The notes under the pieces: generated by a model
What the model was told of the DNA's origin: nothing
Seen by the model: the letters and a program-made list of their open reading frames with translations, nothing else
Database searches by the model: none
Assembly: GCF_000307105.1 (NCBI RefSeq)
Contig: NC_018645.1
Coordinates: 3,792,001-3,856,000 of the forward strand
Length of the DNA: 64,000 nucleotides
From: Desulfobacula toluolica Tol2
Lineage (GTDB): Bacteria; Desulfobacterota; Desulfobacteria; Desulfobacterales; Desulfobacteraceae
Direction of reading: 5' to 3'
Position numbers and translations under genes: made by a program
Shown: positions 18,739 through 24,380 of the stretch, one piece after another
Layout of the letters: each line of letters opens with the position of its first letter
Position numbering within the stretch: position 1 is the stretch's first letter

Positions 18739-18801
18739 TAATTTTTGACCCTGAAACCTTTAACGCATTGTTGGACAAAGCCATCCAGTATCATAGACAA
18801 A

Positions 18802-18818
18802 CCTGATATTTTATCAGG
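18802..18818. terminator. Bidirectional terminator-like hairpin between phoR and the activase gene
   Basis: CCTGATA, TTT, TATCAGG: a perfect 7-bp stem between two convergent genes, overlapping the last codon of the minus-strand activase. The T-tracts on either side are weak, so termination strength is uncertain. Confidence 0.45.
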
Positions 18819-19647
18819 CATTTATCTTCTGTTTGAAATAGTCTATCCAGGCTCTGTTTTCAGCCATGGAAACCGGTTTGTCACTCAAATTCTCATGAGG
18901 CTTACGGTTCAGCCGGATCATTTTTTCCCGCGAACCTGGATTATAATAAAGGAACTCACAATGCTTTACTCTGTATTTTAAAAAGAAATCAGCTATGGCG
19001 GCAAGATTTTCTTTGTTTGCCACAAAATGAGGAATCAGGGGAATCCTTGGCAGTACGGTGATATCTTGTTCAAGAAGCTGCCTGAAGTTTTCAAGTATAA
19101 GATGATTTGACTTCCCAAGCAGGCGCTTATGAATCTCGTTATCCATGATCTTAAAATCAAAACAGATCAAATCAATGTTCGGCAAAATTTTTAAAACAAA
19201 TTCATTAAAATCAAAATATCCGCAGGTTTGAACGGCAATATGAATCTGCTCTTTTTTTAGCAACAAGATTACCCGGGAGATATAATCTATAAACCCCAGG
19301 GATTCTCCCCCGGAAAATGTCACCCCTCCCCCTGATGTCTCATAATAGTGTTTGTCCTGCAACACAAGACTTGCCAGCCGTTCAGGAGAATAAGTTTTCC
19401 CGATATTCCGCCGTGCAAGTGCAAAACATTTTTTTCCCTTGGTACAGTTGCCGCAATGAATACAGTCTTCCGGAAAAAACATGGTCTCCATTTCATAATT
19501 CTGGGATTCGGGATTATGACACCAGGGACATGAAAGGGGGCAGCCTTTAAAAAAGACTGTTGTCCTCACGCCCGGACCGTCAACAAAAGATCCTCTGGCA
19601 ATATCGAAAATCAATGGCTCCGGTCCGGTTGTGATACACTTATGCAT
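18814..19647 (-). CDS. Glycyl-radical enzyme activating enzyme (radical SAM)
   Basis: 277 residues. The radical SAM cluster is C36-x3-C40-x2-C43 (CPLSCPWCHNPE), preceded by DGPGVRTTVFFKGC as in all activases of this family. It is followed by GGGVTFSGGES, the SAM-contacting motif. A ferredoxin-like insert carries only four cysteines (C62, C65, C68, C74), enough for one accessory cluster, whereas most activases outside the pyruvate formate-lyase type carry eight. It should install the glycyl radical on Gly790 of the enzyme encoded two genes upstream. It overlaps the SCP2-like gene by 8 nt, so the two are co-translated. The reductant is not encoded nearby. Confidence 0.92.
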   Translation of the reverse strand: MHKCITTGPEPLIFDIARGSFVDGPGVRTTVFFKGCPLSCPWCHNPESQNYEMETMFFPEDCIHCGNCTKGKKCFALARRNIGKTYSPERLASLVLQDKHYYETSGGGVTFSGGESLGFIDYISRVILLLKKEQIHIAVQTCGYFDFNEFVLKILPNIDLICFDFKIMDNEIHKRLLGKSNHLILENFRQLLEQDITVLPRIPLIPHFVANKENLAAIADFFLKYRVKHCEFLYYNPGSREKMIRLNRKPHENLSDKPVSMAENRAWIDYFKQKINA

Positions 19648-20173
19648 GATCTTTTAACAATTCTTTAAAATCATTGATTCCCAGCAGTTCAGGAATCAGC
19701 CACAGCAAATATATGAATTTGAAAAGATAATTCAGGTTTCCTGAAACGCTCAACTGGTTATTCAGCATCCCTGCAATCACATCGGTATTACCGGACAGCA
19801 GGAAATCAGCCATTGCCTTTCCGTCCTTGAACGTCACTGTAGTGGTCGGGTTTTCAACAAGGCTGTCCATAGCCTTCATCCCGTCTTGTTGAGCAAACAA
19901 CACATTGACCTTTTTGAATACGGCAGAAACATCTATTTTTTTGTCCCTGCTGCAGATGGCATATGAGGCGGTAAAATCCTTGATGTTTTTCCGGTAATCT
20001 TTGTTGACAACAAACAAAAGGCTCATGGCCTTGAGCAGCAGATAAAGCAGGTTGTCCAGGGCTCCTCCGGCAACTTCGTTTTCAATATCATTTTTAAGTG
20101 TTCTCAAGTTGTTTGCAATCAGTGTTTTTTGCATCCTTTCTGAAAGCCCCTCGAGCTGATCAAATAAATTCAT
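19640..20173 (-). CDS. SCP2-like (sterol carrier/lipid-binding) protein in a glycyl-radical operon
   Basis: 177 residues, no signal peptide. The C-terminal half fits the SCP2 lipid-binding fold by pattern: a strand TTTVTFKDG, then a helix AMADFLLSGNTDVIAGMLNNQ, then LSVSGNLNYLFKF, the order and hydrophobic spacing seen in SCP2 domains. The end (FIYLLWLIPELLG) is strongly hydrophobic. SCP2 proteins bind fatty acids, sterols or acyl-CoA. It sits between the glycyl-radical enzyme (1 nt away) and its activase (8 nt overlap), so a direct functional tie is very likely: a small subunit, a substrate carrier or a stabiliser. It does not resemble the known small subunits of benzylsuccinate synthase or hydroxyphenylacetate decarboxylase, which are short cysteine-rich proteins. 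Confidence 0.6.
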   Translation of the reverse strand: MNLFDQLEGLSERMQKTLIANNLRTLKNDIENEVAGGALDNLLYLLLKAMSLLFVVNKDYRKNIKDFTASYAICSRDKKIDVSAVFKKVNVLFAQQDGMKAMDSLVENPTTTVTFKDGKAMADFLLSGNTDVIAGMLNNQLSVSGNLNYLFKFIYLLWLIPELLGINDFKELLKDHA

Positions 20174-20174
20174 A

Positions 20175-22658
20175 TTAAGACTCCTTTTTGATTAATGGGA
20201 CAAATTCACCTGAAGAGAGTTTGTACTGGCTTCGCATAATCAATTCGTCTTTCATTGCCTCGTTCAAGGATTTAAAATAAGCAGAATATCCTGACACTCT
20301 GACCAGAAGATGGGGATGGCTGTCAGGATCGGCTCTGGCTTCTTCCAGAGTTTTATAATCCTGTATATTGAACTGAACCTGCTGTCCGCCTTTTTCCATA
20401 TAGGCTTGAACAACGCTTCCAAATCGATCTGCATTTTCAAGAGAACATTCCACGGGAGAAAATTTCATATTCAGGGCATAGGCTCCGGGTATATGCTTGC
20501 TGTTGAGGCCTGCAACGCAATTGAGTGCGGTTGTCAAACAAGTGTCTATCTGTGAAGCCGGTGTGATGCCGCTGGAAAAAGGTATGTTTGCTTTTCTTCC
20601 GCTGGGCAGGGCTCCTGTTACACTGCCGTATCCTGCATGGTTTGTCATTGTCCAGTAAGCAACCCTGTAATTGCCGCCCCTATAGTTTTGCTTTGTGTTG
20701 AACACTTCATATCCAAGATCAATTAATCTTCCGGAAATATCAACGGCAACAGGATGGTCTGTGCCGTACTTGGGCGCCTTGTTTTTCAGATATGCGCAAA
20801 GCAACTCATGCCCTTTGAAATTATTGTCAACCGCCTCAACCAGTTCGGCAAGGGACAGATTCATGCCGGTGTTGTTTTCATTGAAACACAGATCCTTTAT
20901 GGCACAAATGGAATCGCAGACATCAGGAAAACCAATATGAGTGACTCCTGAAGAATTATAGATCGCCCCACCCTGAATCAGATCTTTGCCCTTGTCCAAA
21001 GGTCCTTTGAATATGGCTGACAAAAGCGGAGTCGGAAGGAATTGCTGGTGTGTCTTTCCATAGGTGTTGTTCAATGAGATCGCATTTTCAGCCATAAGCT
21101 TTGTCTGTTCCGCATAGGCATCCCAGAAATCTTCAAAGGTATTGAACTCAGATGGATTACCGGTTGCCTTCCAGAGCGGTTTTTCTCCTGTAACCGTTGT
21201 TCGGCCGTTGTGAAGGGTCATGTATAAAATCGTATACATCATCATGAATATGGAGGAACTGGCGCTGTAATCCCTTCCGGCGCTTCCCAGCTCAACACAT
21301 CCTATGACGGCATAATCTCGGGCATGCTCAAGAGTCTCCCCCTGGTTGACAAGGGTCCTGATATTTTGAATATCATTGAAAAAAGCAGGAATGGCCTTGT
21401 TGGTAAGGATGACCCTGCTGACCTCATTTCTGTATTCAACGGGATTTTTTTCCGGATGAAACCTGGCATTTACATTGGGGTCCCGAATCGGCAAAAGCTC
21501 CGTGATTTTCAATAAAACATATGTCAGTTCATTGACCGCATTGTTCCCCTTTTTGTCCACTCCGCCAAGGGTGACAGCGGGAACCGCGCCCGCACCCCCG
21601 AAAAGTTTTTCTGCAGCTTCAGGCACAAGGTTAACATTATCGGCAATTTTAAACCACAAGGATCCTGAAATTTTCAGCGCCTCCTCAATACTAAGCACTC
21701 CGGATTCATAATCCCTGATAAAATAAGGATATAATATTTGATCAAGGCGTCCTGGATTGATGGCCATGTTCGAGTTTTCTGCAAACACACAGACCTGACA
21801 GATCCAAAGGGCATTTACAGCTTCATGATAGGTTTCTGCCGGTTTTGCCGGAACTCTTTTGCAAATTTCTGCAATACTTTGAAGGTTTTTTTTTCGTTCC
21901 GGGTCGGTTTCATTATCAGCTTTCCTGGCCGCCTCCCTGGAAATATTGGCTGCATAATCAAGTATGCCCTGCATCGCGATCCTGACAGACCTGTAAAAAA
22001 ACAATTTTTCCTTATCATTGCCTTGTTCCTCTTCTTTGTTTGCCGCCTCTTCCATTATGCGTTGAATCCCTTTTTCAAGTACCAACTCATAACAAGGAGT
22101 GGTATGTGAAATGGTCGCGGCCTTGGCAATGGTATAGATAATCATTTTTTCCAGCAGGCCCTGCCGAAAAGGATCCACTTTCCGGACTTCCTCGGACATT
22201 GATTTTTCCATCCAGTAGGGGAATACGTCAAAATTCAAAATATCGGCATCTTTTTTGTCAAGAAACTGTGGATTATCTTTTCTTTTACTGATAGTTCCCA
22301 GCTCAGGCCAGATACTCAAACCAAAAAACTCGGGATAAACCGGGGCTCCCAGAGCTTTTGCAGTGGTGGCCCCGCCGAGCATATTGTCGTCATGGAAACA
22401 TATTTCCCTGTTGGACAGATAACCGGCAACAGCCTCAGCTCTTCTGACCGGCATGGGCAGGTTCAGATGTTCGGTTTCCTTGAGATAGGCCGTCATATAC
22501 TTGGCTCTTTCAATATCGACGGCGGCAGTGGCGCTGCGGTGCAACTCCAGCAATGTATCCAGAAGGGGAAGTTTTGTTTTCAGATTTCCAGGGGTATACT
22601 CCTTGAGTTTATCTCTTACTTCATCTGTTTTTTTATACACGTCAAATTTCCTTTTCAT
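20175..22658 (-). CDS. Glycyl-radical enzyme, PFL-like family, substrate unknown
   Basis: 827 residues from the ATG at 22658. A TTG at 22724 would add 22 poorly conserved residues. The catalytic thiyl residue is Cys454 in VIGCVELGSA, with Glu456 two positions on, and the radical site is Gly790 in LLVRVSGYSAYF, followed by the usual ELIMRSQY tail. The Cys-x-Glu pair is the general acid/base arrangement of the eliminase and decarboxylase branch (diol and glycerol dehydratases, choline and sulfonate lyases, arylacetate decarboxylases). Pyruvate formate-lyase has adjacent cysteines, and fumarate-adding enzymes lack the Glu as I recall. The residues after Glu456 (LGSAGRDY) differ from the CVEP most of those enzymes share. 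It shares its operon with SCP2-like and DUF6765 proteins, so a lipid-derived substrate is possible. Confidence 0.9.
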   Translation of the reverse strand: MKRKFDVYKKTDEVRDKLKEYTPGNLKTKLPLLDTLLELHRSATAAVDIERAKYMTAYLKETEHLNLPMPVRRAEAVAGYLSNREICFHDDNMLGGATTAKALGAPVYPEFFGLSIWPELGTISKRKDNPQFLDKKDADILNFDVFPYWMEKSMSEEVRKVDPFRQGLLEKMIIYTIAKAATISHTTPCYELVLEKGIQRIMEEAANKEEEQGNDKEKLFFYRSVRIAMQGILDYAANISREAARKADNETDPERKKNLQSIAEICKRVPAKPAETYHEAVNALWICQVCVFAENSNMAINPGRLDQILYPYFIRDYESGVLSIEEALKISGSLWFKIADNVNLVPEAAEKLFGGAGAVPAVTLGGVDKKGNNAVNELTYVLLKITELLPIRDPNVNARFHPEKNPVEYRNEVSRVILTNKAIPAFFNDIQNIRTLVNQGETLEHARDYAVIGCVELGSAGRDYSASSSIFMMMYTILYMTLHNGRTTVTGEKPLWKATGNPSEFNTFEDFWDAYAEQTKLMAENAISLNNTYGKTHQQFLPTPLLSAIFKGPLDKGKDLIQGGAIYNSSGVTHIGFPDVCDSICAIKDLCFNENNTGMNLSLAELVEAVDNNFKGHELLCAYLKNKAPKYGTDHPVAVDISGRLIDLGYEVFNTKQNYRGGNYRVAYWTMTNHAGYGSVTGALPSGRKANIPFSSGITPASQIDTCLTTALNCVAGLNSKHIPGAYALNMKFSPVECSLENADRFGSVVQAYMEKGGQQVQFNIQDYKTLEEARADPDSHPHLLVRVSGYSAYFKSLNEAMKDELIMRSQYKLSSGEFVPLIKKES

Positions 22659-22712
22659 ATGAAAGAATTTCCAACTTCTTGAAATCAAAGATTTTTTACT
22701 ATTTATTGAAAG
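22656..22712 (+). repeat. Divergent copy of the intergenic element at the glycyl-radical gene start
   Basis: CATATGAAAGAATTTCC... through AAATCAAAGAT...TTTATTG aligns with 39138-39190 at roughly three bases in four, without gaps. In both places it lies directly upstream of a minus-strand gene, so the similarity may reflect a shared control region rather than a mobile repeat. Confidence 0.45.
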
Positions 22713-22739
22713 ATAACATATCAATTCAAACGTACCTTG

Positions 22740-23852
22740 TCAGGCCACACAGATTCCGTATTTTGGAAGGATATCCCTGATGATATCAATCCTGTGGATC
22801 TGTAGAGCATCATGAAACAGTTTCCAGTCACTCCGGAGGAATTCAGGGGAGAATGGAAACAACTCGTGTTTTGTCTCGGATTCCCTTTTCGTTTTCAGTG
22901 CCTTATATTTCCACGAATCCTTACCATTGTGTATATATGACAAGTTTTCCTCGCCTTTTTCAGCAAAACTAAAATCGCCGGCAGCAATGGATTTCAACCA
23001 TTTCATATGGCGGTCTTCGCCTTCTTCATCTTCAAAGGCCCTGAAATTTTCCTCGATTTTATTGAGGTCTTTGGCGGGTATCTCATCCCAATCTTCCAGA
23101 GTGTAATCCGGATCTTTCATCCGAAAGCAGACCATAGCCTGGTGCATTCTCTTTACGGCATCCATAAAAATTTTTGTATTATCCCGCACAATCTCTTTTC
23201 CAAAGCCATTTTTATACTGCCATTTCAGGTAGGGAAGGTCCGGAAAAGCCAGTACCGCGCCATGACCTAACGGAAATGCATCATTGATTATTTTGCTTGT
23301 CTCACGGTTAAAACAATGAGCAAAATAGTTGGCCACCTTATCCAAAAGAGTTGTATTATCATCATCTTTTTTCTTTAAGCCTTCAACCTCGTTTATTTGA
23401 TGATTAATACCGGCAAAACCCTGATGGGCAAAGGTGTCTGCCAGCACATGCATGGTAATGCCCAGCCTGTGCAGCCCGTATGGCAAGTCATGACAGTCGA
23501 TGCAGGATTTCATCATATCTTCTGCAACATAACTGTCCGGGTAACAGACCAGCTTGTTGACAAAACTGCCGTCCGGATTATCCCCTGCCCTTTTCCCGCC
23601 GTTTCCCGGTAAAAAATGAAACGGCACCCATGTAAAATGATTGGCCAGCTCCTCAAAATTTCGATAATCCAGCATTTTATGGGCTGAACTGATCCGACTG
23701 TACATGGCTTTATTTCGAAATTTTATGCTGCCTGAATTAACTGCGTCATCCACATATTGAGCAGAATGGCTGATTATATTGGCATCCTGCATTGAAAACT
23801 TTGCCAGCCGTGCCGTAACGTAGGTAACTGTGTGATGAAAATCAATTTGCAC
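22740..23852 (-). CDS. DUF6765-type protein, histidine-rich, possible metal hydrolase
   Basis: 370 residues, cytoplasmic by sequence. I recognise the DUF6765 family, which has no assigned function. Conserved-looking features: IDFHHTVTYVTARLAKF at the N-terminus, ISHSAQYVDDA, FTWVPFHFLPG, and GITMHVLADTFAHQGFAG. The scattered His and Asp, especially H-x3-D-x3-H in the last motif, recall the trinuclear zinc site of phospholipase C/S1-P1 nucleases. That is an inference from pattern only. RBS GGAGG precedes the ATG. It ends 82 nt before the glycyl-radical start on the same strand, so it is probably cotranscribed, and a lipid-acting role would fit the SCP2-like gene. Confidence 0.75.
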   Translation of the reverse strand: MQIDFHHTVTYVTARLAKFSMQDANIISHSAQYVDDAVNSGSIKFRNKAMYSRISSAHKMLDYRNFEELANHFTWVPFHFLPGNGGKRAGDNPDGSFVNKLVCYPDSYVAEDMMKSCIDCHDLPYGLHRLGITMHVLADTFAHQGFAGINHQINEVEGLKKKDDDNTTLLDKVANYFAHCFNRETSKIINDAFPLGHGAVLAFPDLPYLKWQYKNGFGKEIVRDNTKIFMDAVKRMHQAMVCFRMKDPDYTLEDWDEIPAKDLNKIEENFRAFEDEEGEDRHMKWLKSIAAGDFSFAEKGEENLSYIHNGKDSWKYKALKTKRESETKHELFPFSPEFLRSDWKLFHDALQIHRIDIIRDILPKYGICVA

Positions 23853-23957
23853 TGTAAACCTCCTTGCTTTTAAAATTTAAGTTTCCCGGACATCAAAAGC
23901 GATGATATACATAAAGATGTTCATAGCAATGCCCGGGAACCACAGTTGTTTTCCTGT

Positions 23958-24374
23958 TTACTCTGCTTCATTGCTTGAAAAGATATAAGCAAAAGGAATT
24001 GCAATGATATCCCCGATAATAAAGGTCAGATAGCTTAAGAAAAAGAACCATCCATAGCCTTGCAATTCCCCCCTAAATAGAATGGGCAAGATAACAAATA
24101 TTGACCAAAGTAATTTATAAGTCATCTGAAAAAACAGAACAGGTGAAAATTTAAGGGGGGTTTTCAGAACCAAGGCAAGTATGCAGCAAATACCTACAGA
24201 AAGATCAGCTCCACCCGTGATACCGAACATAACCGGTTCCTGTGGGGGCAGCTTAAATATGGAAATCATCATATCGGGCGCAAGTAGTATGCCCAATCCA
24301 AAGGCACTTGCTATTACTGCGGAATAAATATACATGGCTTTAAGCCAATTCCAGCGAACATTCTGCAACTTCAT
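23958..24374 (-). CDS. Four-helix inner-membrane protein of unknown function
   Basis: 138 residues from the second ATG (MKLQNVRWNW), which has AGGAGG 7 nt upstream; the first ATG at 24380 is only about 1 nt from it. About four transmembrane helices are visible (starting near AMYIYSAVIASAFGLG, DLSVGICCILALVL, LLWSIFVILPILF and GWFFFLSYLTFIIGDIIAI). No catalytic motif is seen, and I do not recognise the family. It is 105 nt upstream of the DUF6765 gene on the same strand and may be the first gene of the glycyl-radical operon. Confidence 0.75.
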   Translation of the reverse strand: MKLQNVRWNWLKAMYIYSAVIASAFGLGILLAPDMMISIFKLPPQEPVMFGITGGADLSVGICCILALVLKTPLKFSPVLFFQMTYKLLWSIFVILPILFRGELQGYGWFFFLSYLTFIIGDIIAIPFAYIFSSNEAE

Positions 24375-24380
24375 GATCAT

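Follow-up and report, generated by a model that had tools for sequence, protein, structure and literature searches.

The glycyl-radical enzymes (GREs) that have been characterised act, to our knowledge, on small soluble substrates or, in the case of the succinate synthases, on hydrocarbons, and we know of none that works with a lipid carrier. Small subunits do occur among them, in benzylsuccinate synthase and in hydroxyphenylacetate decarboxylase. The locus considered here lies in a stretch of 64,000 nucleotides of Desulfobacula toluolica Tol2 (NC_018645.1, positions 3,792,001 to 3,856,000), called the window throughout, and it sets a GRE next to a protein of predicted SCP2-like fold. We lean, with the balance tipping modestly that way, towards an uncharacterised class of GRE in which an SCP2-fold carrier would hold or deliver a hydrophobic, membrane-derived substrate and a radical 1,2-elimination would cleave its C-O bond. 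The genes are the following.

18814..19647, minus strand: GRE-activating radical-SAM enzyme (activase), 277 residues, overlapping the SCP2-like gene by 8 nucleotides (Pfam radical SAM, NCBIfam)
19640..20173, minus strand: SCP2-fold, lipid-carrier-like protein, 177 residues, starting 1 nucleotide past the GRE stop (predicted fold, fusion, neighbourhood)
20175..22658, minus strand: GRE, 827 residues from ATG, with Cys454-Val-Glu456, His185, Trp669 and Gly790 (Pfam PFL-like and Gly_radical, trees, alignment)
22740..23852, minus strand: DUF6765 protein, 370 residues, GTG start (Pfam PF20551, E 1.2e-104)
23958..24380, minus strand: hydrophobic membrane protein, 140 residues, a doubtful member of the system (open reading frame, hydrophobicity)

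This layout of five minus-strand open reading frames at 18814-24380, with its 1-nucleotide gap and 8-nucleotide overlap, is the one given in a preliminary description of the locus, and the Pfam match bears out the DUF6765 assignment made there.

What is chiefly new is a fusion: GREs of about 1000 residues, forming a clade that is sister to the one containing the window enzyme, have an N-terminal domain homologous to the SCP2-like protein. A profile of that protein finds 43 places in 291 genomes of the order, 42 of them adjoining or fused to a GRE and one at a contig edge. SCP2 protein and GRE are a nearly constant pair, as two genes or as a fusion; the preliminary description had made its case depend on the SCP2-like gene being kept beside the GRE in relatives, and it is. 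Plasmid records searched with the SCP2 protein gave no match. The label "SCP2-like" itself holds for the predicted fold (pLDDT 84.8) and not for profiles, since neither Pfam nor NCBIfam has an SCP2 profile that matches the 177-residue protein at E <= 1. SCP2 domains that bind lipids or long-chain compounds are among its best fold matches.

Obligate pairing and fusion would suit equally well an SCP2-fold protein that serves as a structural or activation subunit of a GRE with a non-lipid substrate. Moreover, of 20 proteins from neighbouring loci, a fused GRE included, just one resembles a lipid enzyme, an acyltransferase beside the locus L014. The lipid- and long-chain-binding domains among the fold matches argue against a mere subunit, as do the leaning of DUF6765 to a phospholipase C fold and the hydrophobic pocket residues of the separate-gene group, both described below. 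We regard the subunit explanation as unlikely, while granting it a real chance.

For the composition of the cassette, 41 separate-type loci were compared. GRE and SCP2 occur together in 37 of these, three others being truncated by contig ends and one (L173) having GRE fragments only; the activase adjoins the pair in 32. DUF6765 is present in 26, but six of those loci were fetched by way of DUF6765, so that 20 of 35 is the fairer figure; in L142 it lies 2.3 kb away. Gene order varies, DUF6765 being first in the window and last in L042, L136, L162, L171 and L172. The membrane protein has no Pfam family above cut-off and adjoins the cassette in two other relatives only (L006; L009 = L037) among the loci then collected; it is a weak and doubtful member of the system. 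Of the five-gene set put forward in the preliminary description, the GRE-SCP2 core is nearly constant and the activase usual, DUF6765 is a looser partner and the membrane protein falls away. Members of the cassette come from Desulfobacterota and from metagenome-assembled genomes labelled Calditrichaeota (L011) and Bacteroidota (L014).

That the 827-residue protein is a GRE is clear from Pfam and alignment: it has the PFL-like domain, the C-terminal Gly-radical domain, the catalytic Cys and the radical Gly, and a cognate radical-SAM activase lies beside it, scoring 235 bits against the TIGR02494 cut-off of 174 (NCBIfam). Its scores against the NCBIfam equivalogs HpsG, HpfG, HypD and CutC and two decarboxylases are 215-453 bits, with cut-offs of 1000-1150. 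Individually they are 453 of 1000 for sulfopropanediol dehydratase HpsG, 440 of 1100 for hydroxyproline dehydratase HypD and 398 of 1050 for choline trimethylamine-lyase CutC; the PFL2/glycerol dehydratase subfamily TIGR01774 gives 518 bits, under its curated cut-off of 678. The top PDB match is PFL2 of Archaeoglobus fulgidus (2f3o) at 398 bits, with isethionate lyase below it at 297. Identity to reference GREs is 23-32% overall, and 27-31% to CutC, HpsG, HypD and glycerol dehydratase.

A first tree took in 67 GRE domains, including the window genome's three remaining GREs and, as references, CutC, HpsG and HypD (each above its own family cut-off), glycerol dehydratase, PFL2 and E. coli YbiW and PflD; domains shorter than 600 residues (E. 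coli PflB, with 508 matched, is one), exact duplicates and the HypD fragment L153 were omitted. The window GRE falls in a 39-row SCP2-linked clade, whose Shimodaira-Hasegawa-like approximate likelihood ratio (SH-aLRT) support is 100 and whose stem, at 0.51, is long. Under a mixture model, a further tree built from 42 hand-chosen rows of the same set recovers the clade with 25 rows (support 100), separate-SCP2 members (support 88) being sister to fused-SCP2 members (support 100). Several rows outside the clade are long branches, and the branching order among them is unsure. Isethionate lyase and the arylacetate decarboxylases, which neither tree contains, were compared by NCBIfam and PDB scores. 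Because the equivalog scores fall far under cut-off, identities are 23-32% and the clade is separate in both trees, the window GRE, as far as sequence comparison can place it, belongs to none of the characterised classes tested. The tight clustering with a characterised class that would have told against the preliminary description did not appear.

These results bear directly on three other explanations. A known small-molecule lyase (for glycerol/propanediol, choline, isethionate, sulfopropanediol or hydroxyproline) that lies beside SCP2 by chance would have the same superfamily fold and Cys-x-Glu motif, but the HpsG, HypD and CutC scores, the 27-31% identity and the fully supported separate clade make this scarcely probable; for isethionate lyase, which the trees lack, the argument is the PDB score alone. 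Cys-x-Glu is found in the decarboxylase branch too, which brings in an enzyme for a hydrophobic acid, akin to hydroxyphenylacetate or indoleacetate decarboxylase. The two decarboxylase models reach only 297 bits (cut-off 1100) and 215 bits (cut-off 1150), and on these scores we think this reading very unlikely. Least probable of all, to the point of being nearly negligible, is hydrocarbon activation by fumarate addition of the benzyl- or alkylsuccinate synthase type. Alkanes are conceivable as SCP2 cargo, and the remaining three GREs of this genome (L126-L128; G000:C1 175816, 582571 and 1845076), which form one group and show Ser where the Cys-x-Glu motif has Glu, are possibly fumarate-adding enzymes. 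The window GRE, however, has Glu456 where those three have Ser, and is 23-25% identical to them. Fumarate-adding enzymes lack a Glu two residues past the Cys and have accessory small subunits; no small-subunit-like open reading frame lies between or beside the cassette genes.

The active site was compared in the 67-row alignment, in glycerol dehydratase numbering, with residue roles taken as general background. Cys454, Glu456 and Gly790, singled out in the preliminary description, align with C433, E435 and G763, and the eliminase Cys/Glu/His set is retained: Cys433, Glu435 and His164 are kept in all 39 clade rows, and Gly763 in each row that extends that far. At the position of Tyr640, 38 of 38 clade rows have Trp (Trp669 in the window GRE), a residue that not one of the 28 outside rows shows there. 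The polar substrate contacts H281, S282, Y339 and D447 become M298, A299, V359 and S468. At the first three of these positions the separate-SCP2 group has Met (18/19), Ala (19/19) and Val (16/19), and the fused group carries more polar residues (Thr, Ala, Ser or Val at the first, Gly or Ser at the second, Asp or Thr at the third); at the fourth, the clade has Ser, Gly, Asn or Ala. The pocket, whose hydrophobic size the preliminary description wished to see inspected, has hydrophobic residues by alignment in the separate-SCP2 group, and polar ones at some of these positions in fused members. Since the fused group is the more polar, the two groups may not have one common substrate.

DUF6765 is encoded in 43 of 297 genomes of the phylum and is also found without a GRE nearby. 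As a strict partner it had to be rejected: a GRE, SCP2 or activase gene lies within ~1.5 kb at only 7 of 30 fetched DUF6765 loci, the window included. The GTG start in the window is preceded by AAGGAGG, the N-terminus of relatives is MQIDFH, and no signal peptide was seen by eye. Ten aligned members have H6, D35, H58, H135, D139 and H143 invariant, residues that could, by analogy only, be ligands of a three-zinc site. The structural model leans weakly to the fold of zinc phospholipase C and S1-P1 nucleases (1ca1, 2ffz, 5fb9), with which there is no significant sequence match. DUF6765 is unmentioned in the PMC literature as searched, which does not establish its absence from print.

The following scheme would accommodate a carrier-fed eliminase. 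DUF6765, where present, would act first, removing a phosphate or head group and exposing a terminal hydroxyl. The SCP2-fold carrier, as separate protein or N-terminal domain, would hold the lipid or hand it over. The activase would put a radical on Gly790, from which it would move to Cys454, and the thiyl radical would abstract hydrogen at the carbinol carbon of the substrate; Glu456 would accept the hydroxyl proton and His185 protonate the leaving oxygen. The ensuing 1,2-elimination would break a C-O bond, either dehydrating a lipid diol or expelling an alkoxy group, and the aldehyde or ketone formed could be oxidised further. Gene set, clade, predicted SCP2 fold, fusion and conserved catalytic residues are observations here; lipid binding, the elimination chemistry, the phosphohydrolase reaction and the sequence of events are inferred from them. 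The lipid substrate suggested in the preliminary description is partly supported: it gains from the predicted SCP2 fold, the pairing and fusion and the less polar pocket positions, and loses by the looseness of DUF6765 and its weak fold match.

Several points weigh against the carrier-fed eliminase. The Foldseek template-modelling (TM) scores of the SCP2-like protein are moderate (<=0.48 on query, <=0.69 on target), and SCP2 folds may also scaffold complexes. Ten of the 41 separate-type loci have usable flanks and lack DUF6765 (five more are cut), and the DUF6765 model finds no Foldseek match at E <= 0.001. No downstream pathway genes travel with the cassette among the neighbour proteins and loci scanned. 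His164 supports a leaving oxygen without proving one, because 15 of 28 outside rows share it and HpsG, a dehydratase, has Gln there. The pocket, finally, is read from an alignment and general residue roles rather than from a structure of the window GRE, and is in part polar in fused members.

A narrower version, to which we give a small chance, is the O2-independent cleavage of glycerol ether lipids. DUF6765 would strip the head group, SCP2 pass on the alkylglycerol, and the GRE, acting on HO-CH2-CH(OR)-, expel a long-chain alcohol as the leaving group of the radical 1,2-elimination. Alkylglycerol monooxygenase (AGMO) is O2-dependent. Ether lipids appeal for two reasons. A sulfate reducer is known to produce them (PMC11150832), and AGMO is called the sole known enzyme of alkylglycerol breakdown (PMC7911779; PMC3617469); in the available part of the AGMO review (PMC7911779), the word "anaerob-" does not occur. 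No result of ours favours ether lipids above diols or sphingoid bases. If an ether lipid were the substrate, the system would bear on how anaerobes break ether bonds and on the recycling of bacterial and archaeal ether-lipid remains. In any case the GRE-SCP2 pair, found both as two adjacent genes and as one fused gene, opens a lipid-type radical enzyme to direct test.

One further family, with a domain of about 300 residues, recurs beside separate-gene cassettes, in 16 of 35 separate-type loci (L143:2447-4480, L156:5408-7549, L167:11594-13506, L040:17611-19998 and 12 others). It is often in tandem, has the motif LNYRW...DEiVeIa.GLyLGQL.YAT...FGYFlLMD and, by eye, a lipoprotein-like start in some copies; it has no relatives in Pfam, NCBIfam or PDB. 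DUF4334 was unmatched in 118 genomes and 14 controls, and kinship of the family to it is no more than a guess. Fifteen of 291 genomes of the order, by their number the same set as above, encode the family, and 14 of the 15 also have the separate-type GRE-SCP2 pair, itself present in 22 (Fisher p 1.8e-17, a value uncorrected for kinship and inflated, 7 of the 14 genomes having seeded the profile and three more being already known neighbours). Fresh finds are G232, G297, G324, G344 and G350, four of the five with the cassette; a distance of ~960 kb separates family and cassette in G350. Since no copy is seen in the window genome, the family is not essential to the system.

Some features of individual loci may be recorded here. 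A single auxiliary 4-Cys cluster motif and a 62-residue spacer mark the window activase and its four close relatives; all 13 other, more distant activases measured have two, with an 88-89-residue spacer. A terminator-like stem at 18801-18819 covers the stop codon of the activase gene; the region has 13 terminator-like sites where shuffles lead one to expect 6.2 (standard deviation 3.0), and promoter-like sites are no commoner than in shuffles (17 against 15.8). The GRE is split over two frames in L014:8007-10492 and L042:4847-7331. Both breaks fall near what corresponds to residues 348-370 of the window enzyme, with shifts of opposite sign, and misassembly or gene decay may account for them. 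L035:3436-18575 has a separate-type GRE-SCP2-DUF6765 set without adjacent activase, and at a distance of 7 kb a fused GRE that does have one; possibly the two GREs share activation. L041:7608-13551 is a tandem pair of fused SCP2-GREs from different subgroups, overlapping by 11 bases, and in L137:7996-12580 a 403-residue open reading frame of unassigned kind interrupts a fused GRE. Pfam-confirmed TetR-family regulators adjoin fused SCP2-GREs at L132:8507-9151, L133:9301-9981 and L044:12007-12672, and the similarity cluster containing them covers 12 of 25 fused loci.

How, then, does the locus compare with what has been described? Neither a benzene-activation cluster (PMC13101534) nor limonenylsuccinate synthase (PMC12583861), both considered as similar gene sets, was retained, the word SCP2 being absent from the available part of either text. 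Among the PMC matches listed, glycyl radical, SCP2 and sterol carrier come together in a fungal genome paper only, and those for GRE with lipid terms nowhere contain "glycyl radical". PFL2 of A. fulgidus, for which we know of no assigned function, is closest among structures: it lies on the same larger side of the tree and has Cys-x-Glu and the His, but it is only 31.6% identical, falls outside the SCP2 clade and has Tyr for Trp669 and Asp for Ser468. B12-independent glycerol dehydratase (1r8w) shares the Cys, Glu, Gly and His164 and likely the elimination logic; it differs in its H281, S282, Y339 and D447, which are Met, Ala, Val and Ser in the window GRE, and is 30.4% identical. The alkylsulfatases Pisa1 (2yhe) and SdsA1 (2cfu) are metallo-hydrolases, not radical enzymes, and their SCP2 match is C-terminal (residues 548-652 of 2yhe) rather than N-terminal as in the fused GREs. 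What they do have is an SCP2-fold module on an enzyme for long-chain substrates, and they stand among the best fold matches of the carrier.
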